64,000 nt of DNA, taken from NCBI GenBank assembly GCA_013306675.1, contig JABLUY010000049.1, forward strand, positions 105,125 through 169,124, given 5' to 3'. Each line of letters begins with the position of its first letter. The first letter of the stretch is position 1. Below are positions 7,832-46,381 of this stretch, in pieces. This DNA comes from Thraustochytrium sp. TN22. Lineage: Eukaryota > Sar > Bigyra > Thraustochytrida > Thraustochytriidae. The position numbers and the translations under genes are program-made. The notes below the pieces were generated by a model that ran no database searches, was not told the DNA's origin, and saw only the letters and a list, made by a program, of their open reading frames with translations.

Positions 7832-10800
7832 ATGGCGACGGCTGCCGTGGCAGCAGCGCTCGCGAACGTGGACGATGGCGTGGTGATGGAGCAGCCATTT
7901 GCGGGCAGAAAAAGGCCACGCGTAAGCGCTGGAGCGCCGCGGTCGCCGAGTAACCTGTACAAGGAGAACCGCAAAGGCGAGGTGGACATGCTGCCGGGCC
8001 GCGTGCTGGTGGAGAACATTCACGAGCAGTTAGTACTCAACAGGGAGAATCGCGCCAACTATTGCAACGTGTTCATGTTCATCTTCTACGTGATTTTGTA
8101 TGTAAGCATCCTCGGGCTGCAGCGAGCGCCCGCTGAATCCTTCAAAGTCGAGGAGGCTATCAAGACGGCACTCTTTAGTGAGACAACGGGAACTTTGGAG
8201 TGGTCGACGGGCGAGATCGTCACCAACATGAACAGCGTCTCGCACATCTGGAGTTGGTTTGACACAAACGTGGTAAGCGCCATCTTTCTTGACCCGACGT
8301 GCGGCGACGGCATCTGCGAGAAGCCACTCGAGTACAGCCAGTGGCTGCACAACGGCTGTAGCGACGACTGTGGCGCCTATCCGTCCTCCAAGACGAGTAA
8401 GGTGGTAGTCAACGTGACAGCCGACTTCGAGGACGCCGACGAGCTGGCCGCAGCGAGTTGGAACCTGTGCTCTACAACACATGATGTGTGCTACTTTGAG
8501 GAGAACCAGGTCTTTACTTCGTACAACGAGTCGCAGGTGTACTCTCTTAGCCTGTTGGACGGCGTCTGGGAGGTGCAACTCACTGCTCTGCGCGGAGGCA
8601 TCATTGGAGGGGTGTACCTCGAGACGTCGGAGACGACGTACTATCTGGTCAACGCAACGGACGATGAGGCTGACAATGTGACCGATGGCAACGCAACGTC
8701 ATCAGGTGTTAGATACGTTGCAGAGGTGTCGACGGTGCGCACGTATCTCGCGGAATGGTCCAAGTGCGTGAGCGCCGACAGCAGCGGGGTCTCTGCCAGC
8801 GATCTGGCGGCCATCGCGACGCAGTGCGAGGCAGCCACCGGCCAAGCAAAGGCTATTTGCAGCAGTGAGGATTGCAGTGCCTGCAGCGAGTCGAAGTGCT
8901 ATGCAACCGACGGTTGCGACTTTGACACCGAATCTTCAAGTTGTGTGGTGGCCGTGTGCGGTAACGAACCCTTGCAATGCCTCTACTGCAGCACGGCGGC
9001 AGCGTGCCAAGCCAACTCGGGCTGTACGTGGAGCAGCACCGACGCATCGTGCTCCGCGTACTGCTCTGCGTCAGCGTGCTCCTCTGCTGCGTGCGCCCTG
9101 TCAGAGGATGCCTGCGTCGGGCAGACAGGCTCGTACTGCGTCTGGGATGCAGCAGCAGAGATAGCGTGCAGGTCGCCCACAGCTGATGAGTTGTGCGCAC
9201 GGGATTGTTCCGTGTGTACCTCAACACAGTGTTCCGCGCAGAGCGGCTGCTCCTGGGACAAGGGCTCGTGTGTCGCGGACAGCGGCTCCTCAGACTCTGG
9301 CGGGAGCGGGGAGTCCTCCACCTCCGAGGACATGAGTGCATACACGTGCGCAGATGATGCGTGCTTTGCGTGCACAAACAAGAACCAGTGCACAACGACT
9401 CGGAGCGGCTGTATCTGGGAAAGCACGTACTGCGTTCCAGACACCAGCTTGTGTGCAAACGTTTGCAGCCAATGCATCGACGAAGCAGACTGCGCTGCGC
9501 AGACATACTGCAGCTGGAACTCAACCACGAGTGTTTGCGACGACTTGGGCCTCTGCCTGAACGGCTGCGAGTATTGCACATCGCAAACCAACTGTGAGAC
9601 AAACACGCTTTGCACATGGGACTCGAGCACTCTCACGTGCAGCACCGCGCCGACGTGTGAGTCTGAGTGCTCCATGTGCGCGGACAAGGGATCATGCGAT
9701 ACCAATGGCGCTTGCAGCTGGAGTGCAGGCTCGTGCGTCACGAGCGATCGGCGCCAGCTTCTGGAACTGCCCCGAAGGCTGGCCGACTCGTGCGGCATCA
9801 CAAGCTCTTGCGATGCGTGTAGCGATGACCAGACCATGTGCGAGAAGAAGTCCAACTGCGACTTCGACTACCAGTTCTGGTCGTGTGATGACAATGGTGA
9901 TGCCGCGGAAGTGACCTCAGCCTGCGACGAGGCCTCGGGCGGCTCATGCACCTTCGCGCTCGAGTCCAACGGCATCTGTGACGAGGAGTGCAACATCGGC
10001 GAATGCTACTACGACGACGGCGCGTGCGCGGACACCGCTAGCCTGCTCACGTACATGTGCGAGGACCTCTGTTATTGCGACATGCTCGGAGATGGCGTGT
10101 GCAACGCGGCGTGCAACAATGCTGCATGCGGGCTGGACCTAGGCGACTGCTGCGAGCGCGTCTTCACGGACGAGCTCGCAGTTGAATTCCAACTGTGGAA
10201 TTTCTACACCCCGGACACCATTGAGCGCCTCACACCGGACCCACTCACGCCCCGCAAGCGATACCTGGCATCGACAAATCGTCTTGTGGGCGGCGTTCTG
10301 CTCATGCAGGAGCGCCACAGTCGTGGCGACTGCCCGAGCCAGCGCTTTGCTGAACTTGGGGAAGAGTGCTCGTCCGGAGAGGCCTCGGAGGAGCCGTTTG
10401 GCGCGGACCCGGTATTCATGCGCAACAGCTCGCTCAACACCGACCCCGCCGTGTACAAGGCGAAGAACTCCTACTACAACCTGTCGGACCTGACCGAGGT
10501 GAGCGAGCTGGGCTTGCCGTATGGGTTCCAGCACTATGCTACGGCGGACGGTAGTCTGGCCGGCTTCCCGGTGTACATGGACGTGAACCTAGGCTACGAC
10601 CGTGCCCAGCAGTACCTGGCATACATGCGTGAAGGCTTCTACCTGGACAGTGACACGGACACCATGTCCGTCAACATGATCACTTACAACGCTGAGGTTC
10701 GCATGTTCGCCAGCACCAAGATCACCTTCACCTTTGAGGATGGCGGACGCATTGGCATGTCCTACCTGGTACAGACATTGCGGGTCGAGTCGTACGCAAC

Positions 10801-12556
10801 AAGTCAGGACGTCACGCGGTCCCGTCTGGAAGCGTTGTTCTTGCTCCTCACGGCGCTCAACCTGCTCACGGAGCTGCGCGACCTGTGGCTCGACTTCCGG
10901 CGCACGGGCAACCCGCTCGCGTACTTTGAGTCAGCGTGGAACTACATTGACCTGCTCAATATCTTTCTGCTTGCGTCGAACGCCATGACCTGGATCAGCT
11001 TCTATTCCTTCTATGCAGCCAAGTACAGCCCGCAGCAGCGCTACAACGTGTATTTGGATCTGGAAGCAAAGGCCCGTTACCTGGCCGTGAATGCCACCGG
11101 CATGGAAGAGATGCTCGAGATCTTCGTCTTCACCGACACCATGTCCAGTCTCATGCTCGCCTACATGGCCAGTAGTGGCGGTTCGCTCGTGCTCGTCGTG
11201 CTGCGCGTCCTCAAGGTGCTCGACTTCCAGAAGCGCATGGGCCTCGTCACGCGCACCATCTCCAACGCCGCCACGGACCTTGCGCACTTTGCCATCCTCT
11301 TCACCATGATCTTCTCCTGCTACGCCTGCCTGGCGTACATCATCTTCGGGTCGAGTATCGTCGGCTTCTCCACTGTCGCGCGCTCTTTCAATACTTGCTT
11401 CTCCATTCTCCTGGGCGACATTGAGGTCAGCGAAGAGCTCTTTATGCACCCGAGCCTGGGCGCCGCCGTCATGTTCTACTACACCTTCATCTTCCTGGCA
11501 TACTTTATCCTCATGAACATCCTCCTGGCCATCCTCGTGGAGGCCTTCGTGGAGGTGAAAAAGTCGGCCGAGTATAGCCAGAGCCTCCCGGCGGAGCTCG
11601 CGCAGATGGCGTCTGCCGTCGTCAAGACGCTCCCAGGCTTTAGACTTGACCCCAAGGCGCATCTGCCCGATGAGCAGATCATCGACCTGACATCGGACTG
11701 GATGATGGAGAACCGCATCCTCCAGGAGGAGAGCAAGATCGGCCGCCGCACGTACCATACGGAGGGGTTTGAAGCAAACCGGGACCAGCTCATTGCTATC
11801 TTGGAGTCGGAACTCGAGCGCGTACGGCACCAGCGCAAGACATCCACCTCGGCGGAAGCCGCAAATGTGCTGGGTCACAAGACCGCCAGCCCTCTCAGCG
11901 CGCTGCTTGCGAATGAGGCGGCCACCACTGGGCGTCTCGCATCGCAGATTGCAGACAACATCCTCCATCGCTATGGCCGGGGCAAGGACGTCATCCATTC
12001 TTCCGACGTGCGACGAGTTGTTCCTGTAGACCGAACTCCGAGCACCGCCATGCAGCAGCGCGCCGCGCTTGCCATGCGCCGCATGACCATGTCCGCCGTG
12101 GCCCGTCTCAAGGGCATGGCACGTGATGCCGCGGCTGACACGGTTCAGTCGCGCGCTCTGCAGGAGCGCAAGCCTTCGAATGAACGCGCCCAAGCAGCGG
12201 AGAAGGACGAAGGCATCGAGAGCGTGCTAGGAGGAGGAGGGGCAGCAGGCGCACAGGTCGACCGGACGCATATCGAATCTAAGCGGGCGCAAGCCGACGG
12301 TCAGCAAGCCGGCGGTCAATCCCTGAAATTCTTCTCCGTGGGAAAGCGGCCTTTTGTCAACCTCAGCATTCCGCGGGCCTCGCAGGTCAAGTATAGCGCT
12401 CGGGAAAAGACCCGAGGCCAGGAGCAAGACGAGGAGGATTCCTTTGAGGATGAAGTGAAGCCCCTCCCAGAGTTCGCACCAACACCAAGCCGTCGGACCA
12501 CGGCCTTCATCCCGCAGCCCAAAGACCTTCGCGAGCCACGTGGACCTTCACCGTGA
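7832..12556 (+). CDS. PKD2: Polycystin-2-like (TRPP) channel with LNR and cysteine-rich modules, copy 1
   Basis: A predicted cation channel of 1574 residues. The order is: a cytosolic N-terminus with NLYKENRKGEVD; a first membrane helix at about 78-98; an extracellular loop; about nine six-cysteine modules at 343-685; two LNR (Lin12/Notch) modules at about 707-775 ending in GLDLGDCC; a polycystin (TOP-like) domain around 865-985; then five more helices. Pore features match PKD2: 'FSTVARSFNTCFSILLGD' has the LGD filter, followed by S6 'YFILMNILLAILVEAF'. The cytosolic tail is helical and charged. The ATG at 7832 was chosen because the paralogue downstream starts comparably and the upstream in-frame extension is microsatellite. 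No intron is apparent. The next gene is its tandem duplicate, so the pair may form homo- or heteromers. A ciliary membrane location is inferred from the family. Confidence 0.9.
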   Translation: MATAAVAAALANVDDGVVMEQPFAGRKRPRVSAGAPRSPSNLYKENRKGEVDMLPGRVLVENIHEQLVLNRENRANYCNVFMFIFYVILYVSILGLQRAPAESFKVEEAIKTALFSETTGTLEWSTGEIVTNMNSVSHIWSWFDTNVVSAIFLDPTCGDGICEKPLEYSQWLHNGCSDDCGAYPSSKTSKVVVNVTADFEDADELAAASWNLCSTTHDVCYFEENQVFTSYNESQVYSLSLLDGVWEVQLTALRGGIIGGVYLETSETTYYLVNATDDEADNVTDGNATSSGVRYVAEVSTVRTYLAEWSKCVSADSSGVSASDLAAIATQCEAATGQAKAICSSEDCSACSESKCYATDGCDFDTESSSCVVAVCGNEPLQCLYCSTAAACQANSGCTWSSTDASCSAYCSASACSSAACALSEDACVGQTGSYCVWDAAAEIACRSPTADELCARDCSVCTSTQCSAQSGCSWDKGSCVADSGSSDSGGSGESSTSEDMSAYTCADDACFACTNKNQCTTTRSGCIWESTYCVPDTSLCANVCSQCIDEADCAAQTYCSWNSTTSVCDDLGLCLNGCEYCTSQTNCETNTLCTWDSSTLTCSTAPTCESECSMCADKGSCDTNGACSWSAGSCVTSDRRQLLELPRRLADSCGITSSCDACSDDQTMCEKKSNCDFDYQFWSCDDNGDAAEVTSACDEASGGSCTFALESNGICDEECNIGECYYDDGACADTASLLTYMCEDLCYCDMLGDGVCNAACNNAACGLDLGDCCERVFTDELAVEFQLWNFYTPDTIERLTPDPLTPRKRYLASTNRLVGGVLLMQERHSRGDCPSQRFAELGEECSSGEASEEPFGADPVFMRNSSLNTDPAVYKAKNSYYNLSDLTEVSELGLPYGFQHYATADGSLAGFPVYMDVNLGYDRAQQYLAYMREGFYLDSDTDTMSVNMITYNAEVRMFASTKITFTFEDGGRIGMSYLVQTLRVESYATSQDVTRSRLEALFLLLTALNLLTELRDLWLDFRRTGNPLAYFESAWNYIDLLNIFLLASNAMTWISFYSFYAAKYSPQQRYNVYLDLEAKARYLAVNATGMEEMLEIFVFTDTMSSLMLAYMASSGGSLVLVVLRVLKVLDFQKRMGLVTRTISNAATDLAHFAILFTMIFSCYACLAYIIFGSSIVGFSTVARSFNTCFSILLGDIEVSEELFMHPSLGAAVMFYYTFIFLAYFILMNILLAILVEAFVEVKKSAEYSQSLPAELAQMASAVVKTLPGFRLDPKAHLPDEQIIDLTSDWMMENRILQEESKIGRRTYHTEGFEANRDQLIAILESELERVRHQRKTSTSAEAANVLGHKTASPLSALLANEAATTGRLASQIADNILHRYGRGKDVIHSSDVRRVVPVDRTPSTAMQQRAALAMRRMTMSAVARLKGMARDAAADTVQSRALQERKPSNERAQAAEKDEGIESVLGGGGAAGAQVDRTHIESKRAQADGQQAGGQSLKFFSVGKRPFVNLSIPRASQVKYSAREKTRGQEQDEEDSFEDEVKPLPEFAPTPSRRTTAFIPQPKDLREPRGPSP
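8858..9890 (+). repeat. Cysteine-rich module array in polycystin copy 1 (about 9 units)
   Basis: Residues 343-685 of the protein contain about nine units of 30-45 residues with the pattern C-x3-C-x2-C-x4/5-C-x4/6-C-x-W-x4/7-C. The last unit is preceded by an Arg-Arg-Gln-Leu sequence. The layout superficially resembles PSI or furin-like modules, but I do not recognise a named family. Confidence 0.8.
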
Positions 12557-13152
12557 AAGCATCCCGAGCTGCTTACCTGCCTTGTTCACTGTTCACATCA
12601 TCTTTGTAATTTATGATTTCAGCCCGCCGCCTTGGACGGTTAGCAAGATGATTGCCAAGATCAGCCCAAGCATCAAGATGCAGCATGGACCAGCATGAGG
12701 TCGCCTCAGCCAACACCATGATCTGGCCATTGCCAAAAGCCGCCACTGCAGGCTTTCAGTTGTGCTTGCTTGGGACGTCCGATTCATGCACTTCAAGCAC
12801 TCACTCAGCCTCTCGAGGTGAGCCTGAGAGGTCAGTGATTGATGCCAGCGCTGACTGCAAATGCGTGCGCGCGCACGTGCATGCATGGACCCTCGGGGGC
12901 CAATAACACGCGACCTTGTGCCGGGTCTTGTGCCGCCACGTGCCAAAAGGCGCCAAAAGAGAGAATCACTGATGATGACCAGCGCGACGGTTGGGGCCGG
13001 GCCGCGCGCGCATTCGGCAGGCGGCTTCGGCGTGCAGAGCTGTCCGAGCGCTGCGCAGCGTGCATGCACAGGCGCGAGCGCGACCCAGAGCCACGGGTCG
13101 AGCGCGCCCTGGGCTGACCGCCGGGCGCGTCCCAGCCCAGCACAGGCCCAGC
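12557..13152. other. Intergenic region between the tandem polycystins
   Basis: About 600 bp of 3' flank and promoter. A CCAAT sequence lies at about 12900, following an alternating CGCACGTGCATGCATGG stretch. No convincing gene is seen. Confidence 0.6.
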
Positions 13153-16100
13153 ATGCAGACGGGCGGCGTCGTGTCGGCCGCCCTGGCCGCCATGGAAGAG
13201 CAGGAGGCGCAGGACAGGGTGCTGCGCGGCAAGCGGATAGGAAGCCCGGGCGCGCAGCGGCTGAGCTCCGTGATGTCACCGGGCGGCGTGCAGCGGCCGC
13301 CCAACAACCTGTACAAGGAGGACCGCAAAGGCGAGGTGGACATCTTGCCGGGCCGCGTGCTGGTGGAGAACATCCACGAGCAGCTCGTGCAGAACCGGGA
13401 GAACCGAGCCAACTACTGCAATCTGTTCTGGTTCATGCTATACGTGATTCTCTACGTAGCCATCCTCGGCATGCAGCGCGCCCCCGCCGAGTCCTTCATG
13501 GTGGAGGAGGCCATCAAAACGGCGCTCTTCAGCGAACACACCAACACACTGGAATGGTCAAGCGGCGAGATCGTCATCAACATGGATAGCATCTCGCACA
13601 TCTGGAGCTGGTTCGAGAACGCCTTCGTGGGTCGGATCTTCGTCGACCCGACCTGCGGCGACGGCATCTGCGACAGTCCACTTGAGTACCGCCAGTGGCT
13701 GCATCACGGCTGCAGCGACGACTGCGGCACCTACCCTTCGTCCAAGACGACCAAGGTTGTGGTCAATGTGACGGCAGATTTTGAGGATGACGACGAGCTG
13801 GCCGCGGCAAGCTGGAACCTCTGCTCCTTGACGCACGACGTGTGCTACTTCGAGGCAGACCAGGTCTTCGAGTCGTACAACGAGTCGCAAGTGCATGAGG
13901 TCAGCCTGCTCGATGGCGCCTGGGAGATCCAGCTCACCGCGCTGCGCGGCGGCATTGTGGGCCAGGTGTACACCGAGACTTCCGAGATTGTGAGCGTCCT
14001 AACCAACTCCACGGAAGACTCCAACTCGACTGAGGACGCTGGCAACGCGACCTCCACCGCCACTTACACAAGCGAGGTGCAAATCACGCGTACATACATG
14101 GTGGAGTGGACCAAGTGCGCAAATGGCGACGAGAGCGGCAGCCGGTCCGCGACGATCGAGTCCATCAAGGAGGAGTGCGAAGCCGCGACCGGTGAGGTAA
14201 AGCGCGCTTGCAGCAGCGACGACTGTGGCGCATGCGGTGAAACGCGATGCTATGAGCTGGCCGCGTGCGACTACGATACCGACACCGAGACCTGCGTGGA
14301 GGCTACCTGTGGCAACGAGCCACTCCAGTGCCTCTACTGCACGTCGGCGGCCGCGTGCACCGTCAACACGAACTGTGGCTGGGACCCGCTCTACGCGTAC
14401 TGCTTTGCGCGCTGCTCTCCCGACGACTGCTCCTCTGCCACGTGCGGTGCATCTAGGGAGGCCTGCGTGGAGGGGACCGACGGCTACTGCGTGTGGGACT
14501 CCACGGCAGCGGTCTCGTGCATGACGCCAACGCAGGCGCAGCTGTGCGCACGAGACTGCGCCCTGTGCAACCAGAACCAATGCACGGGTCTCGCAGCCTG
14601 CTATTGGGAGGATGGAGAGTGCCTCACGAGCAGCGACTCTTACTCGTCCTGGCAAGAGGAGGACATGTCTGCATACACCTGCGAAGACGCCTGTTTTGCC
14701 TGTACCACGGCCACCAAGTGCAGCACCGTGCGCAGCGGCTGCTTTTGGGACAGCGGCTCGGGGTCTTGCATGCCAGACACCAACCTTTGCGTGAATGTCT
14801 GCAGCCTGTGCTCAACTGCGACTTCATGTGAAGCGCAACCGTACTGCTGGTGGAGCGAGGACACCACCTCATGCGAGAATTACGGCATGTGCATCAATGG
14901 CTGCGACTACTGTTACACACAGGCAGACTGCACGCGCAACACCCTGTGTGCTTGGGACGTCAATGCATACGAGTGCAAGACCAAGACCTCTTCGTGCGCC
15001 ACCACATGCTCCACTTGCGCAGATGAGACTGCCTGCGTCGGAAGCGACCAGGGGTGCGCCTGGACTGCAGACAACGGCTGCGAAGACGCGGTCGTCGAAG
15101 ACGTCTCCAGCTACACGTGCTCACAGACGTGCTTCGCGTGCGACGAGACTCAGTGTGGCGCCGTGCGCGCTCCCTGCTACTGGGACGGCGAAGCGTGCTA
15201 CGCGGACGAAATCTGCGCGAATGACTGCACACTCTGCATCGACTCGGGCCCGTGCCTCAATGCGCGGCCGGGCTTCTGCTCGTGGGATCCTGAACTTCTC
15301 TCGTGCAGCAACCTGGAGCTCTGTGCCAATGAGTGCCAGTACTGTGCAGACGAGGACGCCTGCGCCTTCAACCCAACCTGCTTCTGGGATGCAACCGGAC
15401 TCGCGTGCAAGCTCGATGACTGTGACGAGACATGCGGCAGCTGCTCGACCGGAACAGAGTGCGACGGCAGCGCGGCCGGCTGCTCCTGGGACGGCTCCGC
15501 TTGCGTCGCCGCGATGTCTGCCTGCGACTCGGATTGCGCGACCTGCGTCGATTCAGCTGAGTGCGGAGCCAGTGCGCATGGCTGCGCCTGGGATGGAAGC
15601 GCCTGCGCCTCAGCGGACTGCGGCAACACGTGTAGCATCTGCGTGGATAGTGCCGCGTGCGCGGAGAACGCCGCCTGTGCGTGGGATGGGAGCGCTTGTA
15701 TAGTTGCGGACTGCAGCAATTTGTGCAGCAAGTGCACCAACAGTACTGCCTGCACAAGCAACGCAGCCTGCGCGTGGGACGGATCTCTCTGCGATGCAGC
15801 AGACTGCGAAGCAGACTGCGCGCTCTGCAGCGACTCCACGACCTGCAGCGGAAGTGGCGCCAGCTGCTTCTGGACCGGAAGCACTTGCACCCTCGCGGAT
15901 TGTGGCAACACGTGCGGTGCATGCACCAGCAGTCCCGCGTGTGCCGAGAACGCAGCCTGTGCATGGGACGGCAGCGCATGCATTGTTGCGAGTTGCTCGT
16001 CAGATTGCTCTCTCTGCAGCGAGTCCACAGCCTGTAGCGGCAGCGAGGCCAACTGCCTCTGGACCGGGTCGACGTGCACGGCGAGGACCTGTGAAAACAC

Positions 16101-19083
16101 ATGCGGCGAGTGCGCTGACTCCACCGCATGCGAAAGCAATACAGCTTGCACATGGAGCGCCTCATCCTGCTACGCTGCATCAACCTGCGCATCTAACTGC
16201 GCGTTGTGTGGCCTGCAGACGGGTTGCTTGAGCAGTCCCGCGGGGTGCTATTGGAGCGGCTCTGCGTGCACGACAGCATCCTGCAGTAACACGTGCGCGA
16301 TGTGCGCTGACGGTGTCGCGTGCGCCAACAATGCGGCCTGCACTTGGGACGGCAGCTCTTGCACGGCCTCAAGACGTCGCCAGCTCGCAACGGCATGCAG
16401 CTCGACGAGTTCCTGCGAAGCCTGCAGTGACAATCCGACAACGTGCGAGAAGAAGTCCAACTGCGAATTCGACTATCAGTTTTGGGAGTGTTATGACACT
16501 GGCGCCGGGCAAGACGTGAGCGAGGAGTGCGAGACGGCCTCAGGAGGCGCTTGCACATATGCTCTCATGTACAACAGCATTTGCGACGATGCGTGCAACA
16601 TCGGCGCGTGCTACTACGACAATGGCTCTTGCGAGGACACGGCCGACCTGCTCACATTTATGTGCTCGGACCTGTGCTACTGCGACATGTTGGCGAACGA
16701 CGAGTGCGACACGGAATGCAACAACGCGGCATGCGGGCTGGACCTGGGAGACTGCTGCGAGCGCGTCTTCACGGACGCGCTTGCGGTGGAGTTCGAGCTG
16801 TGGAACTACTTCACTCCGGAGACCATTGAGCGGCTGACGCCGGACCCACTCATCCCCCGCAAGCGGTACCTGGCGTCTTCGAACCGTATCGTGGGCGGCG
16901 TCCTGCTCATGCAGGAACGTCTCGAGCGCGGGACGTGTCCCGGAAATCGGTTCGCGAGGCTGGGTGACCAGTGCGCGACTGGAAACGCCGCCAAGAACCC
17001 GTACGGCGCAGACCCGGTCTTCTTGCGCAATAGCTCACTTAACACGGACGCCACCGTGTACAAGGCCAAAAACCTGTACTACAACCTATCGGACCTGAAC
17101 GAAGTGAGCGCGCTAGGCATGCCGTACGGCTTCCATTACTTCCAGGTCGGGGATGACGACACCATGGGCGGTTATCCAGTCTATCTGGATGTAAATTTGG
17201 GCTACGACCGCGCTCGAAAGTACCTTGCATACATGCGCGAGGGCTTTTACCTGGACAGCGATACCAACGCCATGTCCGTGAATGTGATCACGTACAATGC
17301 AGAGGTGCGCATGTTTGCCAACACCAAAGTGAGCTACACCTTTGAGGAAGGCGGCCGCATCTCCATGTCCTACCTGGTGCAGACGTTCCGCGTGGAGTCG
17401 TACACGACGGAGCAGGACGCGGTGCGTTTTAAGCTGGAGATTGTCTTTCTCATTCTCACGGCGCTCAACCTACTGACCGAGGTGCGTGACCTGGTGCTGG
17501 ACTTTCATCGCACGGGTAACCCGCTGGCGTATTTCCAGTCCATTTGGAACTACATCGACATGATCAACATCTTCTTGCTCGCCTACAACGCCATGAACTG
17601 GGTGACCTTTTACAACTCATGGGCGGCCGAGTATGAGCCACAGGAGCGGTACAACGTGTACCTGGACCTGGAGGCCGAGGCCCGCTACCTAGGTGTCAAC
17701 CGCACTGGCATGAGCGAGATGCTCGATGCTTTCGCCCTCACCAACAAGATGTCGGACCTCATCCTGCAGTACATGGCATACAACGGCGTGGCGCTCATCC
17801 TGGTTGTGCTGCGCATTCTCAAGGTGCTCGATTTTCAGAAACGCATGGGCCTCGTCACACGCACGATCACCAACGCAGCTACAGACCTGGCGCACTTTGC
17901 CATCCTCTTCACCATGATCTTCTCCTGCTACGCCGGCCTGGCGTACATCATCTTTGGGTCCAGCATCATCGGCTTTTCCACCGTCGCCCGTTCCTTCAAC
18001 ACGTGCTTCTCCATCCTTCTCGGCGACATTGCCGTCAGCGAGGAGCTCTTCATGCACCCGAGCCTGGGAGCCGCCGTCATGTTCTACTACACCTTCATCT
18101 TCCTGGCGTACTTCATTCTCATGAACATCCTGCTGGCCATTCTCGTGGAGGCCTTTGTTGAAGTGAAGAAGTCGGCCGAGTTCAGCCAGAGCCTGCCGGC
18201 GGAGATGGCGCAGATGGTGATTGCGGTTGTCAAAGCGCTGCCAGGATTCCGGCTCGATGCCAAGGCACACCTGCCCGATTCCAAGATCATCGATCTCACG
18301 GCCGACTGGGTCATGGAGAATCGCATTTTGCAGGAGGAGCACAAGATCGGCCGCCGCACGTACCAGTCCGAGGGCTTCGAGGCGAACCGCGACCAGCTCA
18401 TAGCCATTCTCGAGTCCGAGCTGGAGCGCGTGCGCGAGCAAAAGAAGAACCCTAACGCCGCCGAAGCGGCCAGTGTGCTCGGCCACAAGGCGCTCAGCCC
18501 GCTCAACGCAATTCTCGAAAACGAGGCGGAAACCGTCTCGCACCTCGCCACGCAGATTGCAGAAAACATCCTCCATCGCTACGGCCATGGGAAGGACGTC
18601 GCAAGGACATCCCTTGCGCGCCGCGTCATCCCCGTGGACCTCCTGACCAACTCCGTTGCGCAGCAGCGCGCCTCGCAGGCCATTCAGATGATGCGCCGAA
18701 AGACCGCGTCGCGCTACAAGCTCGACGTGAAGCCCGACGGCGCGGACACAGCAGCAGAAGAAGAAGACAAGAGGAAACTGAAGGCCGAAGAGGAGGCCGG
18801 GGAGACAACGTCGAGGGCGCACGCGGACGCCGCGGCTGCACAAACAAGCCCGACTGGCGCCCTTGCGAAACGGACGCTCGTCAATCTCTTGGTCCCGCGG
18901 CCTTCAGGTCTCACATTAGCCAGTGATCGTCCTGCCGGAGCTCAGGGAGAGAAAGACAGCTCCGCCGAAGAGCTCAATACGTTGCTGGAGCTCGTGCGTA
19001 CGCCCACGGAACCTGTCCAGCCAGATGCGCCCGATGCGCCCTCCGAAAACCTCTCCGCCGCGCACTCCAAAAAATCCGACTGA
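13153..19083 (+). CDS. PKD2: Polycystin-2-like (TRPP) channel with LNR and expanded cysteine-rich modules, copy 2
   Basis: The tandem paralogue of the preceding gene, 1976 residues, with the same architecture. Near-identical segments include the N-terminal NLYKEDRKGEVD, the first helix (YVILYVAILGMQRAP), both LNR modules (GLDLGDCCERVFTD), the polycystin domain, the LGD pore loop and S6 (YFILMNILLAILVEAF). It differs mainly in the extracellular cysteine array, which spans residues about 353-1113 and has about 22 modules instead of 9. The 402-residue length difference equals about 13 modules of 31 residues. The most similar neighbouring modules (CAWDGSAC, CxWTGSTC) lie in the C-terminal half of the array, which suggests recent internal duplication. 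The ATG at 13153 is preferred; the in-frame upstream extension is Arg/Ala-rich and looks non-coding. Ciliary or plasma-membrane location is inferred. Confidence 0.9.
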   Translation: MQTGGVVSAALAAMEEQEAQDRVLRGKRIGSPGAQRLSSVMSPGGVQRPPNNLYKEDRKGEVDILPGRVLVENIHEQLVQNRENRANYCNLFWFMLYVILYVAILGMQRAPAESFMVEEAIKTALFSEHTNTLEWSSGEIVINMDSISHIWSWFENAFVGRIFVDPTCGDGICDSPLEYRQWLHHGCSDDCGTYPSSKTTKVVVNVTADFEDDDELAAASWNLCSLTHDVCYFEADQVFESYNESQVHEVSLLDGAWEIQLTALRGGIVGQVYTETSEIVSVLTNSTEDSNSTEDAGNATSTATYTSEVQITRTYMVEWTKCANGDESGSRSATIESIKEECEAATGEVKRACSSDDCGACGETRCYELAACDYDTDTETCVEATCGNEPLQCLYCTSAAACTVNTNCGWDPLYAYCFARCSPDDCSSATCGASREACVEGTDGYCVWDSTAAVSCMTPTQAQLCARDCALCNQNQCTGLAACYWEDGECLTSSDSYSSWQEEDMSAYTCEDACFACTTATKCSTVRSGCFWDSGSGSCMPDTNLCVNVCSLCSTATSCEAQPYCWWSEDTTSCENYGMCINGCDYCYTQADCTRNTLCAWDVNAYECKTKTSSCATTCSTCADETACVGSDQGCAWTADNGCEDAVVEDVSSYTCSQTCFACDETQCGAVRAPCYWDGEACYADEICANDCTLCIDSGPCLNARPGFCSWDPELLSCSNLELCANECQYCADEDACAFNPTCFWDATGLACKLDDCDETCGSCSTGTECDGSAAGCSWDGSACVAAMSACDSDCATCVDSAECGASAHGCAWDGSACASADCGNTCSICVDSAACAENAACAWDGSACIVADCSNLCSKCTNSTACTSNAACAWDGSLCDAADCEADCALCSDSTTCSGSGASCFWTGSTCTLADCGNTCGACTSSPACAENAACAWDGSACIVASCSSDCSLCSESTACSGSEANCLWTGSTCTARTCENTCGECADSTACESNTACTWSASSCYAASTCASNCALCGLQTGCLSSPAGCYWSGSACTTASCSNTCAMCADGVACANNAACTWDGSSCTASRRRQLATACSSTSSCEACSDNPTTCEKKSNCEFDYQFWECYDTGAGQDVSEECETASGGACTYALMYNSICDDACNIGACYYDNGSCEDTADLLTFMCSDLCYCDMLANDECDTECNNAACGLDLGDCCERVFTDALAVEFELWNYFTPETIERLTPDPLIPRKRYLASSNRIVGGVLLMQERLERGTCPGNRFARLGDQCATGNAAKNPYGADPVFLRNSSLNTDATVYKAKNLYYNLSDLNEVSALGMPYGFHYFQVGDDDTMGGYPVYLDVNLGYDRARKYLAYMREGFYLDSDTNAMSVNVITYNAEVRMFANTKVSYTFEEGGRISMSYLVQTFRVESYTTEQDAVRFKLEIVFLILTALNLLTEVRDLVLDFHRTGNPLAYFQSIWNYIDMINIFLLAYNAMNWVTFYNSWAAEYEPQERYNVYLDLEAEARYLGVNRTGMSEMLDAFALTNKMSDLILQYMAYNGVALILVVLRILKVLDFQKRMGLVTRTITNAATDLAHFAILFTMIFSCYAGLAYIIFGSSIIGFSTVARSFNTCFSILLGDIAVSEELFMHPSLGAAVMFYYTFIFLAYFILMNILLAILVEAFVEVKKSAEFSQSLPAEMAQMVIAVVKALPGFRLDAKAHLPDSKIIDLTADWVMENRILQEEHKIGRRTYQSEGFEANRDQLIAILESELERVREQKKNPNAAEAASVLGHKALSPLNAILENEAETVSHLATQIAENILHRYGHGKDVARTSLARRVIPVDLLTNSVAQQRASQAIQMMRRKTASRYKLDVKPDGADTAAEEEDKRKLKAEEEAGETTSRAHADAAAAQTSPTGALAKRTLVNLLVPRPSGLTLASDRPAGAQGEKDSSAEELNTLLELVRTPTEPVQPDAPDAPSENLSAAHSKKSD
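14209..16490 (+). repeat. Expanded cysteine-rich module array in polycystin copy 2 (about 22 units)
   Basis: Twenty-one regular modules plus one degenerate module occupy this stretch. Units 13-21 are the most uniform (about 31 residues each, CAWDGSAC or CxWTGSTC endings) and show alternating A/B unit types, consistent with duplication of two-module blocks. An Arg-Arg-Arg-Gln-Leu sequence precedes the last module, as in the first copy. Confidence 0.85.
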
Positions 19084-19555: not shown

Positions 19556-21919
19556 ATGGAGCCCGGCGGCGCGGAGAGCGGCGGCTGGCGCGTGCCCGCG
19601 CACCTGGTCCGCGGCGCGAGCTGCGAGGATGAGGCCGCCATGAGGGCCGGCCTGGCGCGGAGCGGGTCCATGGAGGCGGAAGGCCTCCGCGCGGCGCGCG
19701 AGGAGGCGCGCAGACTGCGCGATATGGAGGCGCGCGCAGCGCAGGAGGAGGCTCTGGGCGCCGCGGACCTCGACGAGGAGGACTTCATCCTTGAGGATGA
19801 CGACGAGGCGGAAGGGACCGTGATGGAGATGGAGCCCGCGCTCACGGCGGCCCGGCCCGGCCAGGGCCTCTTCCGGCGCTGCGGACAGCTCGTGTTCGCG
19901 CTGGTGCTGGGCGTCCTGGTGCTTTTGCTCAAGCCCGCAACACAGGCCGGTGACGATGGCGGCGACGGGGTGCCGAAGCTTTCGGGCGATGGCCTGCAGG
20001 ACGACGAGGCGATGCGCTACGAGGTGGAGATGTTCACGCCGGCGCTGCAGCGAGCACGCGCTGGCACGAACGAGGCGCTCTTTGGGCCTTTCGAAATGAA
20101 GGCTGGAGGGTTGGTGGAATCCTTCATCCCGCTCGTGGACGAGCGTATCGTACACCACCTGATTGTGTACAAGTCGACCGTCAAGGCGGCGGACGAGCCC
20201 AAGGCAGCGCCGCTCTGGGTCGTGAGCAAGAACCAGAACCTGGACGCAATGATCGTCTTCGCCTGGGCGCGAACCGGACAGGAGGTCCCGACGCCCTTCA
20301 ACATGACGCCGGGCTCTGGCTTCTTTGTGGGGCCTGGCACGGACGCACCGTACCTATACCTGAACGTGCACTTTGAGGTGCCGGAGGACGTCATTCGCTC
20401 GCGCGAGCCCATCGTCGCTGGTGTGCAGCTGCGCGTGAAGGAGCTCGATGCCGGTGTCGTGGAGCGCTGGAATTCCTGCGCCGGCTCGCGCAGCAACTGC
20501 CCGCGCGAGCAGGGCGTGGCGGTGGCACTCCTGCACAATTCAACCTTTAAGCTTGCGCCGCAGTCGCCTGACATTGACGTGGTGGCCGCCTGCGAGGTGA
20601 CCCAGGACGGCGTCGTGTCCGCGTACCGCAATCACGGGCATGGCGAGGGCCGGCAGTGGGTCACGGAGCTCTTCCGCGACGGCCTCCTGGTGGGCACGGT
20701 GTTCAACAGCTCCGTCCAGGAGCCGCAGGTCTTCAAGTACATCTCGGACAATGGCCTCACGCTGCGCAAGGGCGACGTGCTCAAGCTGCACTGCCACTAC
20801 AATACGTCGCAGGCGACCTGGGTCACCCGGGTCGGCCCCTCGCTTACGCGCCACGAGGAAATGTGCAACCAGTACTACATGTACTACCCTCACTTCCCGG
20901 CCGGGAATCGTGACACGCCGCTGTGCAGAATTATGGACAACCTCACAGCCTTCTCGCCCTCGGTGTACGCGGAGCGGCCCTTCGCCGAGGCCGCCGCGGA
21001 CGACCTGCCAGGCCCGGCGTCGCTGGGCCAGGTTTCCGCGACGGCCGTGTCTGCGGACGGCCGCACGGTGTACGTCTTGTCCCGCCGAAGCAACGACTAC
21101 TTCCGGACTCCGCTGATCCAGTCCGAGACAATCTTTGTCTTCCAGCGGACCACAGGCCGCCTCTTGCGGTCCCTGGGCGCCGGTCTCTTTCGCGGGCCGC
21201 ATGGGCTCTCGTGCGACCCCAAAGGGTACCTCTGGGTCACGGACACGGCGTCGCAAGAGGTATTTAAGCTTGATGCCAAGACAGGCGCCGTCCTGCTCAA
21301 GATTGGCACTTTTCAGGAGACTGAGGCAGGGCCCGGGTCCTTCAACAAGCCCACCGACGTGGCCGTGGACGTCGCCCGCTCGGAGGTCTACGTCTCGGAT
21401 GGTTACCTTCACACGCGCGTGGCGGTCTTCGACTCGGAGACGGGCGCCTTCATCAGAGACTGGGACCGGGGAACGGGTACTGCCCCGGGTCAATTCCAGG
21501 TGCTCCATTCCTTGGCGTACGACACGACGCGCGAGCGCATCTACGTCGCAGATCGCGAAAATTGTCGCGTTCAAGTATTCTCTCGTACCGGCGATATTCT
21601 CGACGTCTGGCCCTCGGGGGGCATCTGCGGGACGCGCTCAAGCGTGGAGCTGGGCGCGATGCCTTGGCTTACGCACATGTCGGCCGTGGCCTACTCGCAA
21701 CGCCTCGACGTGGTCTTTACTGTGGAGGCCGATGCTGTCGTGATGCGACGCGCGGAGACCGGAGAGGTGATTCGCGTCTTGGCCCATGACCTGCGCTGGC
21801 CACACGACGTTGACGTAGCACTGCATGCGACGCGGCCGGCCATCTTTGTGGCGGAGCTCTTTGGTAACCGAACCGTGCAGCTCTCGCCGGTAGGAGAGTG
21901 GCCCCTAATGCTGTTCTGA
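19556..21919 (+). CDS. PAM: Bifunctional peptidylglycine alpha-amidating monooxygenase (PHM-PAL), membrane-anchored
   Basis: 787 residues. PAM converts glycine-extended peptides to amidated peptides: the copper PHM domain hydroxylates the glycine and the zinc PAL domain cleaves the product. Residues 1-100 are acidic and cytosolic, a type-II signal anchor lies at about 105-128, then PHM (about 150-470) and the NHL-propeller PAL (about 480-780). All six copper ligands of rat PHM have apparent equivalents: His200-His201 (VHHLIVY), His272 (LNVHFEV), His360 and His362 (HGHGEG), Met436 (EEMCNQYYMYY). The PAL zinc histidines align as His549 (GPHGLS), His651 (LHSLAY) and His750 (WPHDVD), and the catalytic Tyr as Tyr617 (SDGYLHTR). 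Animal PAM carries its anchor at the C-terminus, so an N-terminal anchor is different. Both domains are expected to be active in the Golgi or secretory lumen. PAM has been linked to cilia in Chlamydomonas, which suits the adjacent polycystins. Confidence 0.88.
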   Translation: MEPGGAESGGWRVPAHLVRGASCEDEAAMRAGLARSGSMEAEGLRAAREEARRLRDMEARAAQEEALGAADLDEEDFILEDDDEAEGTVMEMEPALTAARPGQGLFRRCGQLVFALVLGVLVLLLKPATQAGDDGGDGVPKLSGDGLQDDEAMRYEVEMFTPALQRARAGTNEALFGPFEMKAGGLVESFIPLVDERIVHHLIVYKSTVKAADEPKAAPLWVVSKNQNLDAMIVFAWARTGQEVPTPFNMTPGSGFFVGPGTDAPYLYLNVHFEVPEDVIRSREPIVAGVQLRVKELDAGVVERWNSCAGSRSNCPREQGVAVALLHNSTFKLAPQSPDIDVVAACEVTQDGVVSAYRNHGHGEGRQWVTELFRDGLLVGTVFNSSVQEPQVFKYISDNGLTLRKGDVLKLHCHYNTSQATWVTRVGPSLTRHEEMCNQYYMYYPHFPAGNRDTPLCRIMDNLTAFSPSVYAERPFAEAAADDLPGPASLGQVSATAVSADGRTVYVLSRRSNDYFRTPLIQSETIFVFQRTTGRLLRSLGAGLFRGPHGLSCDPKGYLWVTDTASQEVFKLDAKTGAVLLKIGTFQETEAGPGSFNKPTDVAVDVARSEVYVSDGYLHTRVAVFDSETGAFIRDWDRGTGTAPGQFQVLHSLAYDTTRERIYVADRENCRVQVFSRTGDILDVWPSGGICGTRSSVELGAMPWLTHMSAVAYSQRLDVVFTVEADAVVMRRAETGEVIRVLAHDLRWPHDVDVALHATRPAIFVAELFGNRTVQLSPVGEWPLMLF

Positions 21920-36299: not shown

Positions 36300-36608
36300 T
36301 ACACGCAAGTCAAAAGTGCGCACGCACGCGCACGGGTCACGGTCAGCTGCTACTTGATGTATTATGATGACAAATTTCCATACCTTGTGAGACCACTGAT
36401 GTGTGGGTGAGTCTGGGTCTGGGGTCACAGTCTCTCAGTCTCTGTGAGGCGACCAGGCGGCGCCAGCGACCTTGGGTCAGTCGCTGCGCCGATTCGAGGG
36501 CTCGAAGAAGTCGCGATAGTGCAGCAGAAGCGCCAGAAAGAGAGCAGGGGAGTCGAGGATCTTGATATGATCACTGTGGGGCGATCAGGCGGCGCCATCG
36601 ACCTTGGG
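36300..36608. other. Convergent gap containing an extra copy of the FAM135 coding tail
   Basis: Between the ARL6 and FAM135 stop codons. The first unit of a 132-bp tandem duplication lies here (about 36442-36573). The rest shows no gene. Confidence 0.7.
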
Positions 36609-36705
36609 TCAGTCGCTGCGCCGATTCGAGGGCTCGAAGAAGTCGCGATAGTGCAGTAGAAGCGCCAGAGAGAGAGCCGGGGAGTCGAGGATCTTGATGT
36701 GAGCG
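36442..36705 (-). repeat. 132-bp tandem duplication covering the end of the FAM135 reading frame
   Basis: Unit 1 (about 36442-36573) and unit 2 (about 36574-36705) differ at only a few bases. Unit 2 holds the last codons and stop of the FAM135 gene. Unit 1 still encodes the same last residues and stop on the reverse strand (HIKILDSPAL...LHYRDFFEPSNRRSD, with one Ser to Phe change). The period equals exactly 44 codons. Confidence 0.9.
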
Positions 36706-40923: not shown

Positions 40924-41339
40924 TGTTGGACAGATGGCATGAGCCGGCCGAGATCAGCACGCACAGAGACACCGACGTCGAGATGAAGCCGGCCGGCAGC
41001 CTGCTCTGAGCAGCCTGGCCTGAGCAGCCTGGCACCCCGACCGAATACATGGACCGAGCACACCGGCCGATCACATCGGCCGATCTCATGAAAAAAGACC
41101 GAAGCCTCGCGCCAGCGAGCATGCCAACCAAGCAGATCTCCAACCCCGGCTACACGGGGGAAGGAATCGCACGCGGTGGCAGTACAGGAGCGACGAGCAG
41201 CAACGTACGCTCCCCATATCACTCTCTCCCCGCGTCCTCGGTTTGCCCACACGGGCGAACTGAGGCGCGGGGCTTTTTATTCATCTACATTCGCCGTCTA
41301 CGAGTTACTTGAGTTGCAGCCAGCGTATTGCACGCAAAA
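40924..41339 (+). repeat. Left LTR (416 bp)
   Basis: Begins TGTTGG and ends GCAAAA. Internally it has a short duplicated GAGCAGCCTGG unit and a T-run at about 41275. It should contain the promoter, but I see no clear TATA box. Confidence 0.93.
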
Positions 41340-41405: not shown

Positions 41406-44400
41406 ATGAGTGACAACGAGAGCGAGAGTGAGAATGGGCATGGGTTCAAGCCCAGGCTCCCGATTCTCAAAGGCGTCCTCCGGGACGTGTACCCCGCGTG
41501 GAAGGAGCGACTCGACACGTTCCTGCGCACGACTCGATGTCATCCGCTTCAGATCAAGGCATCGATCAAGGCGAACAAGATGAAGGTCGCAAGGCGTCAG
41601 GACGACAAGCTGTACCAAGTTCTGATGGATGCTCTGGGCAACGAGCACTACAACATGATCTCAGGCTACCAAAACCCCCACAAGCAGGGCATGAAGGCAT
41701 ACGACCTGATCAAGGAGCGCATGGAGCCTGACACCGCCGCCCATATCCTGGACCTTATGGACCAATTTATGGCCCAGCTGCAGGGGGCGACGGTAAAACA
41801 CGCCGTGAGGTCGCACTCATCCAAGGACACCTGGTACCGGAACCTCGAGCGAATGATCACCGTCTTCACGGAGACTCATGAACTCGAGGCGGCGGACCCT
41901 TTCTACTACCTTATCATGCTGGCGCTCCAACAGCATACCCATGAGCATATCGGCACCTTTCTACTCAACCTGCACGACAAGAAGCGCCTGTCCAACACGG
42001 ACGTCGACCGGGCTCTCATTCTCAACGTCCAGGCGCACGAAGCCAGGGCGCTGGAGACTGGACCCACCCCGTCTCGCACGAGCTCGCAAGCCATGGTGGC
42101 CACCCGGGACCTTACCTGTTGGAAATGCGGCGGCAACGGCCACATCAGCAGGGAGTGCACCCGAAAGGACCTTTACTGCAGCTTCCACAAGACGAACACG
42201 CACGACACCAGCTGCTGCCAGGCACGCACGAACGGCAAGCAGAAGCGTGGTCACGCCAACCACAACGACCGTCACGCCAAGAAGAAGAAGAGGACTGACA
42301 ACAGTAAGCAATCTGACAACGCTTACTGCAGCATGCTTGATGGCCCTATCGAGGAAGAGTACGCTTTCATGGCGCAGACACAGGCCAAGAACCTGGACGT
42401 CTCGGACGCTCTTCTCGACACCGGATGCACTCGCACGCTCACCTCGGACATGCAACTTCTGTCGGGCTACAAAGCTGTCAACGGCCGCAAGATCATGCTG
42501 GCCAACGGAGATTATATTCAGGCGTACGGCACCGGCGTGCTCACCCTCAGCGCGCGCGACACGATGGGTGTTATGCAAAGCATCCAAGTGGAGTCTGACT
42601 ACGTCCCCGCTGCCGCGCGCACGCTGATCGCCGTGCAAGACATCACCAAGAAGGGCATCACCTTCGCCATGGGCAAGACCTTGTGCACCCTCACGACGTC
42701 GGAGGGCGCCACGATTAAGCTCCGCAACAACAACGGCACACCTACCATCAAGGTGCAAGTCCCTACAAGTGAACAGGAGCCCGCACATGCTTTGGTCGCT
42801 CATGGCTACGCTGTAAACCCGGAGCACCTCCGCGCACATCTGCTGTATGGTCATGCAGGGCCGCGCCGTCTTGCAGCCACACTCGGCATCAAGGAGAAGA
42901 GGATCACGTACATTTGCTCCACCTGCTCCATTGCAAACAAGAAGTGGTCGCCAAGTCACCGAGGCCCTCACGCACCACGGGCGACGGCACCACGCGAGGC
43001 TGTGACCACGGACGTCATTGGTCCCTTCCCAACGCCTAGCTATGGCAAGCGGTACCGCTACGCCGTGGTATACAGGGACCTGTTTTCCGGCTACGTCTAC
43101 ATCTATTTCAAGACGGACTTGAAGAACATGGTGGACACCCTGCACCGTTTTCGCGCCGTGTGGCACGGCAACAAGGAGCGCCACGCCACCATCTACGTGG
43201 ACGCAGCAAAATACTACACGGAGGGCGACTTCGAACAAGCATGCTCCGACTGGGGCTGGCCACAGCGCATCGCGCATCCATTCCAGCACTCCAGCCACCC
43301 TGCTGAGGGCGTCTTGCGGCCACTCCAAGAAGCCATGCGCGCTTTTCTCGTTACCGCAAACCTGACCGATGACCTCTGGCCTGCGGCACTCGCCATGGCT
43401 GTACAGACGAGAAATGTCATCAAGCCCAAGCAGGGCAAGCTGAGCCCTCACGAGCTTCACTTCGGCAAGGCCCCAGACACCTCTCATCTGCACGTGTTTG
43501 GATCCCCGGCCACGGCCAAGCGTCCCGTGGCGGGACGCAAAGAGCCAACCCGAGGCATCAAGTGCATCTACCTGGGGCCATCGATGTCCCACGCGTTTGG
43601 CACTCACACGCTGCTGAACCTGGAAACCGGCGCGATTATGCACTCCAACAGCGCCGACATCCATGAAGAAGCCATCCTTACTCGCGCTACGCAGTACTGG
43701 AACATCTACGACTTCACGGATCATCTGCCACAGCATCACAAGGACCACGTGGCAACGCTCGGCAAACGCACTGCCGACGACGCAGAACTCAACTCTGCTA
43801 CGCTGCAGCCACGCAAGAGACGCGAGGCGGCACGGGAAACGACAACCGCGGCCGAGGGACAACAGGATCTTCACATGGGGCAACACCCAGCCAGCGCTTC
43901 CGACCTCGAGGACCGCCGCGACCAGGAGGAGGATGCCGACGACGCGCTCCTTCACCCTGACAACCACCACAGCTCAAGCCCCGGGGGCGACGCCGCCAGT
44001 GCGGGCAGCTACTACGACAGCGACGACGACGCGTCGGCTAACACGACGCCACCACCGCCGCAGCCAACAACTTCACGCTCAGGCCGCACGGTGCGACCAC
44101 CGGATCGGATTAACGCCGGGCCCGAGGCGCTTGGCGCAGCACGGCGCCACTCGTACATCGCCTTCTTCGCTGGCCAATTCGGCTACATCTGCGAGAGACC
44201 AGTCAACACTCGCGGGGGCGCGTCAGACCAAGATACGCTAAACGCGTTCCTGGCTGCAAATACGAGTGATGACGGTCTCGCCAGGCCGCCACCGCAAGCA
44301 AAGCGGGTAGCCGGCATTGAAGCAGCCGCGAAGAGCGAGCCGGAGCCAAAGACGCTGAACGAGATCAAGAACCTTCCGCCGTCGCTACGCGAGGAGTGGG

Positions 44401-46049: not shown

Positions 46050-46381
46050 GCAGCCTGGCCTGAGCAGCCTGGCACCCCGACCGAATACATGGACCGAGCA
46101 CACCGGCCGATCACATCGGCCGATCTCATGAAAAAAGACCGAAGCCTCGCGCCAGCGAGCATGCCAACCAAGCAGATCTCCAACCCCGGCTACACGGGGG
46201 AAGGAATCGCACGCGGTGGCAGTACAGGAGCGACGAGCAGCAACGTACGCTCCCCATATCACTCTCTCCCCGCGTCCTCGGTTTGCCCACACGGGCGAAC
46301 TGAGGCGCGGGGCTTTTTTTATTCATCTACATTCGCCGTCTACGAGTTACTTGAGTTGCAGCCAGCGTATTGCACGCAAAA
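45964..46381 (+). repeat. Right LTR (418 bp)
   Basis: Identical by eye to the left LTR except for two extra Ts in one T-run (about 46314-46320). A purine-rich AAGGAGCTCCGGGGG-type tract before it may be the plus-strand primer site. Confidence 0.93.

Follow-up and report, generated by a model that had tools for sequence, protein, structure and literature searches.

Two polycystin channel genes lie side by side in the 64,000-nucleotide stretch of Thraustochytrium sp. TN22 DNA analyzed here (the window), and they differ mainly in the length of a cysteine-rich array. How the difference arose, and what such an array may do in a channel, is the question raised by this locus. Polycystins are generally regarded as sensors of mechanical or chemical cues that act by way of their extracellular parts; what links these parts to the pore is still being asked. 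The assembly searched is eukaryotic (37.9 Mb in 453 contigs). The two genes, named here channel A and channel B, have the following features:

7832–12556, + strand: channel A, polycystin with 9 modules; intronless ORF of 1574 aa (Pfam)
8054–8134, + strand: first transmembrane segment S1 of A, residues 75–101 (hydropathy)
10193–10777, + strand: Polycystin (TOP) domain of A, residues 788–982 (Pfam)
11123–11557, + strand: PKD_channel match of A, residues 1098–1242 (Pfam)
13153–19083, + strand: channel B, polycystin with 22 modules; intronless ORF of 1976 aa (Pfam)
13408–13482, + strand: first transmembrane segment S1 of B, residues 86–110 (hydropathy)
16858–17391, + strand: Polycystin (TOP) domain of B, residues 1236–1413 (Pfam)
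17752–18165, + strand: PKD_channel match of B, residues 1534–1671 (Pfam)

Both ORFs run uninterrupted from ATG to stop where the first-pass annotation had placed them. The genes are adjacent and in tandem, with 596 bases between them (12557–13152). PKD_channel is matched at 79.2 bits in A (E 4.1e-22) and 79.0 bits in B (E 4.5e-22) against a cut-off of 22.4, and Polycystin_dom at 27.5 bits (E 2.7e-6) and 30.1 bits (E 4.4e-7) against a cut-off of 23.6. In both proteins S1 lies upstream of the Polycystin (TOP) domain and the remaining membrane segments lie downstream; a crude hydropathy scan picked up S1 plus three more segments in A and S1 plus four in B. The same two Pfam domains are found in polycystin-2/TRPP channels (human PKD2, PKD2L1). 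Polycystin-2 is the best PDB sequence match of A (E 1.7e-25) and PKD2 comes first in a Foldseek search with the A model. A and B differ from these channels by 9 or 22 extra six-cysteine modules between S1 and TOP. In the 568 residues compared downstream of the array, B and A share 76% identity. A search of the assembly with these 568 residues found no further close copy of B (the next four matches show 24–26% identity), and the part before the array matches A and B only. The assembly contains at least 21 PKD_channel matches, counting A and B. The module-like pattern is absent from seven other channel ORFs of the genome, and among ORFs of at least 200 residues in loci L009–L027 none has two modules; four of six other channel ORFs run through Pfam carry ankyrin repeats. 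A plasmid collection searched with part of B gave, as one would expect, no match. It was concluded that A and B are tandem paralogues on a common chassis whose main difference is 13 extracellular modules. Cutting both ORFs by the cysteine framework (9 vs 22 modules) bears out the first-pass annotation on this point. Its list of shared parts stands for the polycystin domain and the pore, which Pfam recognizes, but the LNR domain it had named is below detection in A and B (no Pfam match at E up to 1).

The array was divided into modules by hand from the cysteine framework, with the following result:

8858–9886, + strand: array of A, 9 modules, residues 343–685 (cysteine framework)
14209–16491, + strand: array of B, 22 modules, residues 353–1113 (cysteine framework)
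14209–14544, + strand: B modules 1–3, N-terminal cap; A counterpart 8858–9193 (reciprocal best matches, A vs B)
14680–15117, + strand: B modules 5–8, first group of four; B5–7 one-to-one with A 9347–9655
15118–15522, + strand: B modules 9–12, probable second copy of that group, with no equivalent in A (linker, tree)
15523–16395, + strand: B modules 13–21, uniform modules of 31/32 residues, plus the linker after module 21
9791–9886, + strand: A module 9, conserved C-terminal cap, pairing with B22 at 100/99 (module tree)
16396–16491, + strand: B module 22, conserved C-terminal cap (module tree)

In both channels the array is inserted between S1 and the Polycystin domain, so by the known polycystin topology it is expected to be extracellular with both ends anchored in one subunit. 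This position changes the idea of an extracellular rod proposed earlier: an array held at both ends could be linear only if the chain is cut, and would otherwise form a looped hairpin. The structure models are poor (mean pLDDT 51.9 and 64.6), and a rod geometry is putative. The array of B is 418 residues longer than that of A (761 vs 343). Outside the array B has a pre-array part that is 10 residues longer and a post-array part that is 26 residues shorter (-16), which leaves a net difference of 402. The total of 402 and the 13 extra modules thus agree with the earlier equation of 402 with 13 x 31, but the exact fit is partly luck (418 - 16). An assembly error behind the array difference, a collapse or expansion, is unlikely because the closest module pairs of B are only 73–74% identical in DNA, no stop interrupts the reading frame and 20 modules are present in a homologue of different origin.

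The typical module reads C-x3-C-x2-C-x5-C-x5-6-C-x-W-x4-8-C. All 23 aligned middle modules (A4–8, B4–21) have the six Cys and the Trp without exception, far beyond chance; Phe or Tyr replaces Trp in A1, A9, B1, B22 and some homologue modules. Modules 1 to 3 and the last module are irregular and individually recognizable. Both arrays are acidic, with 102 D+E vs 19 K+R in 761 residues of B and 47 vs 13 in 343 residues of A. Most modules form a short helix and a beta hairpin in the low-confidence structure model. No Pfam family reached its cut-off with B 5–21, A 1–9 or B 16–21, and the two B stretches gave no Pfam match at all, sub-threshold matches included. A sub-threshold match of Dickkopf_N to the A array (18.6 bits vs cut-off 25) was taken as a cysteine coincidence. 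A PDB profile search with the module had no match, and phmmer of B modules 9–21 against the PDB returned ribonuclease A alone (E 0.2). The C-x2-C ... C-x-W ... C look of the module resembles what we take to be that of the PSI (plexin-semaphorin-integrin) cysteine-rich domain. The only two Foldseek matches of the module model, a semaphorin-plexin-neuropilin entry (E 5.3) and a MET receptor entry (E 9.0), are of this kind and not significant, and Pfam PSI does not match B 5–21, A 1–9 or B 16–21 at E up to 10; kinship with PSI is a lead only. The Cys/Trp invariance in the face of saturated synonymous sites (see below) indicates that the module, as distinct from its number, is under purifying selection.

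The first-pass annotation had suggested ongoing unequal exchange among the uniform modules of B. The closest pairs are B14/B17 and B16/B18, with protein likeness of 0.76 and 0.64 and DNA identity of 73% and 74%, respectively. Among B12–B21 the codons agree at 306 of 589 identical residues (0.52), compared with 0.52 expected from the usage of both genes and 0.50 from that of the arrays; the 589 comparisons are not independent, and a module bootstrap gives a range of -0.21 to 0.20 for the relative excess. When only five disjoint module pairs from B12–21 are taken, 47 of 82 codons agree (0.57, expected 0.50). The A-B flanks retain a relative codon excess of 0.15 to 0.27 (N flank 129/219 = 0.59, expected 0.47; C flank 321/564 = 0.57, expected 0.46). 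Positional A-B modules are saturated (67/129 = 0.52, expected 0.55), more so than the flanks. Tandem Repeats Finder (TRF) detected no module-length array in A or B. As a positive control it reported an array of a 330-base unit (score 1544) in S4, another module protein of the same genome, in which two copies of the repeat are 91% identical. An ungapped search of the B array picked up diverged DNA repeats only, at most 77% identical to the reference at module length (e.g., four copies of 77 bases, 69–74% to the reference). Recent tandem exchange thus occurs in S4; because its array was found, the tests are able to detect such exchange in this genome, and none was detected in B. We conclude that there has been no recent exchange among the uniform B modules. 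Near-identical neighboring DNA repeats, by which ongoing exchange would be recognized, are not present in the array, and the suggestion was dropped.

Synonymous sites order neither the uniform modules nor the 13 extra modules as a whole relative to the A/B split, because the positional A-B modules are saturated too. For the direction of change we turned to a module tree (33 columns, in which the bootstrap had not settled). It pairs A5 with B5 (96/90) and places B9 next (94/80), and it pairs A7 with B7 (99/97) and places B11 next (89/19). A6+B6 (94/85), A2+B2 (93/89) and A4+B4 (67/87) are also recovered; the pairs A1/B1 and A3/B3 are not, and A8 groups with B19 (88/83) rather than with B8. One-to-one pairing of the two arrays with large losses in A, which would speak against the earlier proposal, is seen in part in this tree: by position for A2 and A4 to A7 and for the last modules (A9 with B22), and not for A1, A3 and A8. 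Outside the cysteines A5–7 and B5–7 agree at 28 of 71 positions, B5–7 and B9–11 at 16 of 73, and A5–7 and B9–11 at 17 of 72; A5–7/B5–7 is the closest of the three pairs in 98.7% of 5000 column bootstraps. The linker EDMSAYT precedes A5 and B5, and EDVSSYT precedes B9. The similarity of B5–7 to B9–11 (offset 4) is 0.22, compared with 0.12–0.20 at offsets 1–3 and 5–7. From the linkers and the tree it is likely, but not firm, that B9–12 is a copy of B5–8. If so, the position of B9 and B11 outside the A/B pairs implies that this duplication predates the gene duplication and was lost in A. The simplest history would then start from an ancestral array that already had two or more groups of four; A would have undergone at least one deletion, and A8 would be a leftover of the distal array end. 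Rate differences, old conversion or an independent origin of B9–12 would undo this history. A gain in B is no more likely than a loss in A; of the earlier proposal of an expansion from about 9 to 22, the difference of 13 modules stands and the expansion itself is doubtful for at least the second group of four, since A5/B5 and A7/B7 exclude B9 and B11. A dimer or tetrad periodicity was also considered and set aside as weak: in B4–21 lags 2, 3 and 4 reached uncorrected p values of 0.042, 0.032 and 0.018 (8 lags), B12–21 gave p 0.055 at lag 2, and in modules 4–19 of the homologue P0001 only lag 5 was below 0.05 (0.030).

A search of 7753 candidates with the channel region found 13 proteins at E up to 0.001, and seven were inspected for modules. 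P0001 has 20 modules, P0003 seven, P0004 five, P0002 four, and P0005 and P0006 one each; P0007 (Triparma laevis) has none by reading of its sequence. These homologues are gene models, some of which may be incomplete or mis-spliced, P0002 and P0003 foremost. An Ala/Gly/Pro/Ser-rich stretch takes the place of the rest of the array in P0005, and EGF-like domains do so in P0006; in these two proteins Pfam recognizes LNR downstream of the last module. The cap modules 1–3 have counterparts in P0003, and in P0002 with the third truncated. P0002, the nearest of the named homologues and annotated in Hondaea fermentalgiana as 'Polycystic kidney disease 2-like 2 protein', shows 62% identity over the 621-residue searched region. 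Modules 1–2 and the last one are common to it, A and B, but it totals four modules, of which the third is truncated, and the RR linker described below is absent. Its lack of middle modules and RR linker may be real or a gene-model artefact. The middle modules of B and P0001 could not be resolved into orthologous pairs. A and B group as sister genes with weak support (78/86; 71/73 without P0004). Wider trees with distant homologues had long branches and no starred branch and did not resolve the A/B fork; the narrower tree was used instead.

Shortly upstream of the last module both channels have a linker with Arg-Arg pairs:

9737–9790, + strand: linker of A leading to the last module, with two Arg-Arg pairs (RRQLLELPRRL); candidate cleavage site
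16363–16395, + strand: linker of B leading to the last module, with RRRQL; candidate cleavage site

Such a linker is present in seven of the eight module-bearing proteins (P0001 RRVLRRAL, P0003 RRSRRSL, P0004 RRRML, P0005 RRRQL, P0006 RRRTQ); P0002 is the one without it. Among the 17 RR dipeptides in the ectodomains of the eight proteins, 10 are found in the 35 residues that precede the last module, where 0.64 is expected; the eight proteins share ancestry, hence these are not 10 independent events. In A and B alone all three ectodomain RR dipeptides are at that position. The site is kept where the upstream sequence has been replaced. Plain basic-residue density is less striking (188 of 1274 windows in B and 257 of 904 in P0006 are equally basic). 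The RR linker is a plausible cleavage site judging from its sequence and position. If the chain were cut there, the doubly anchored loop would become a free-ended whisker. Kexin/furin was set aside as the protease after no P domain was found in the genome. Site-1-protease (MBTPS1_3rd) had no match in the genome and none in the controls, which makes the search uninformative on absence, and Peptidase_S8 has only five matches in the genome. Cleavage in such a loop has a precedent: Chlamydomonas PKD2 is described in one report as being cleaved within its large S1-S2 extracellular loop (PMC10846610). In the Chlamydomonas mastigoneme, according to another, SIP provides S1 and the part of the TOP domain that is missing from MST3 (PMC11015965). 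The candidate cut in A and B falls in the same large S1-S2 loop, and by rough anatomy it would fit a division like that of SIP and MST3.

The B array also matches ORFs elsewhere in the assembly, which add at least four further module proteins, called S1 to S4 (protein S1 is distinct from the transmembrane segment S1):

G000:C250:21232-28403 and G000:C421:123327-127856: loci L041–L044, proteins S1–S4

They contain 18, 18, 14 and 22 module-like matches in 1142, 1186, 940 and 1426 residues, respectively. The module alternates with longer units made of the module plus extra cysteines, and the bare module accounts for about half or less. S2, S3 and S4, the three whose starts were covered, have a signal-peptide-like start and no further hydrophobic segment. 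In comparisons with the B array all four exceed all 60 shuffles (Cys and Trp fixed), and with the A array two of the four do. None reaches a Pfam cut-off, and a search of 4584 database candidates for relatives of S2 gave none at E up to 0.001. S1–S4 are apparently secreted, and the six-cysteine framework points to an uncatalogued disulfide module common to a channel and to such proteins.

The best explanation overall, which we put forward tentatively, is that the array is a length-tolerant spacer or whisker that is cut at the RR linker and has been shortened in A. A and B are stramenopile polycystin subunits in which a disulfide-rich array, with conserved caps and a variable middle, is inserted into the long extracellular segment from S1 to TOP, and this array would couple the channel to something beyond the cell surface. 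After the cut, one fragment would comprise S1 and the array, now with a free end, and the other the pore together with the last module, the LNR-like part, the TOP domain and S2–S6; the two fragments would stay associated. The ancestral array was probably longer and lost modules in A, so that one cell would have a subunit of short reach and one of long reach, possibly as homo- or heterotetramers.

Other readings were weighed against this one. Array length could be nearly neutral, a tolerated insertion of drifting copy number in which only the caps and the chassis are constrained. We consider this rather unlikely: the same channel part carries 0 to 22 modules, other sequence stands in their place in P0005 and P0006 and the middle modules of B and P0001 lack clear orthology, all of which suits drift, but the 23/23 Cys/Trp invariance despite synonymous saturation speaks for constraint, if on the module and not on its number. 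An uncut array would be no whisker but a disulfide-stiffened loop, or a lid that covers the TOP domain, with a role in stability or ligand binding. Against such a lid stands the RR linker, which holds its position in 7 of 8 proteins despite very different upstream sequence; the two array ends in the same subunit, the lack of a fitting protease among those searched for and the linker-less P0002 speak for it, and on balance we regard it as unlikely.

The same modest standing is given to a tether in which the array binds the secreted same-module proteins S1–S4 and so attaches the channel to an extracellular polymer, in the way that PKD2 anchors mastigonemes in Chlamydomonas (PMC11015965). The four ORFs share the Cys/Trp framework and beat the shuffles against the B array, and three of them have a signal-peptide-like start. 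But against the A array only two of the four beat all shuffles, a module in common is no proof of binding, S1–S4 are encoded on other contigs, and the partnership may not be general since the channels have database relatives and S2 has none. Joining the tether to the preferred reading, a cleaved, disulfide-stiffened whisker of genetically set length would dock onto secreted same-module polymers as a mechanosensor with a built-in ruler, separate from the green-algal mastigoneme-PKD2 system; we think this quite improbable. The least credible reading is the original one, a recent expansion of B from about 9 modules by still-ongoing unequal exchange, with array length setting the sensing range. 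The likeness of B14/B17 and B16/B18, the regular 31/32-residue spacing and the diverged DNA repeats of the ungapped search are what it can claim; the saturated synonymous sites, the lack of a TRF array, the best DNA identity of 73–74% and the A5/B5 and A7/B7 pairs with B9 and B11 outside contradict it.

The favored reading, a cut and length-tolerant whisker, differs from the Chlamydomonas mastigoneme complex (PKD2/SIP/MST1/MST3) in that the array of A and B is encoded within the channel itself, and that cleavage and filament are only putative here. An IFT46 match (E 1.6e-93) makes cilia likely in this organism. Labyrinthulomycete zoospores carry mastigonemes, as stated in one paper (PMC11412368), and an Aurantiochytrium zoospore proteome names a putative mastigoneme protein (PMC12221091); neither 'polycystic' nor 'PKD' is found in the main text of the latter. 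In the open-licence literature no study of thraustochytrid polycystins was found by title. PKD2 appears only in the reference list of a Labyrinthul- paper, and in none of the matches listed for thraustochytrids or zoospores. Aurantiochytrium with 'polycystic kidney disease', and protist polycystin with 'cysteine-rich repeat', returned nothing from the same literature. Since a single chassis bears anything from 0 to 22 modules in one loop, since two array lengths are neighbors in the same genome and since the candidate cut site is conserved, the roles of ectodomain length and loop cleavage could be tested in a stramenopile. Of greater value, in our opinion, are the candidate cut site, by which a loop would become a whisker, and the reuse of the module in apparently secreted proteins, both of which we infer.

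Several other features were noticed in the window. The gene directly downstream of B (19556–21919, + strand) encodes a copper type II monooxygenase followed by NHL repeats; the C-terminal monooxygenase domain is above the Pfam cut-off and the N-terminal one below. The domain order is that of what we take to be a bifunctional peptide-amidating enzyme. A tandem 132-base unit is present in two copies with 94% matches at 36442–36702. A Copia-type LTR retrotransposon is bounded by identical 355-base stretches (40924–41278 and 45964–46318), and its open ORF of 1547 aa (41406–46049) has RVT_2 above and the integrase below the cut-off. The insertion is probably very young because the flanking stretches are identical and the ORF is open. 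Two neighboring dynamin-family GTPase genes are on opposite strands (53032–57678, - strand; 58429–60384, + strand). A protein kinase gene lies at 61978–63777 (- strand). Pfam assigns its product to general kinase families only, and its start presumably recalls the MAK/ICK/MOK ciliary kinases.
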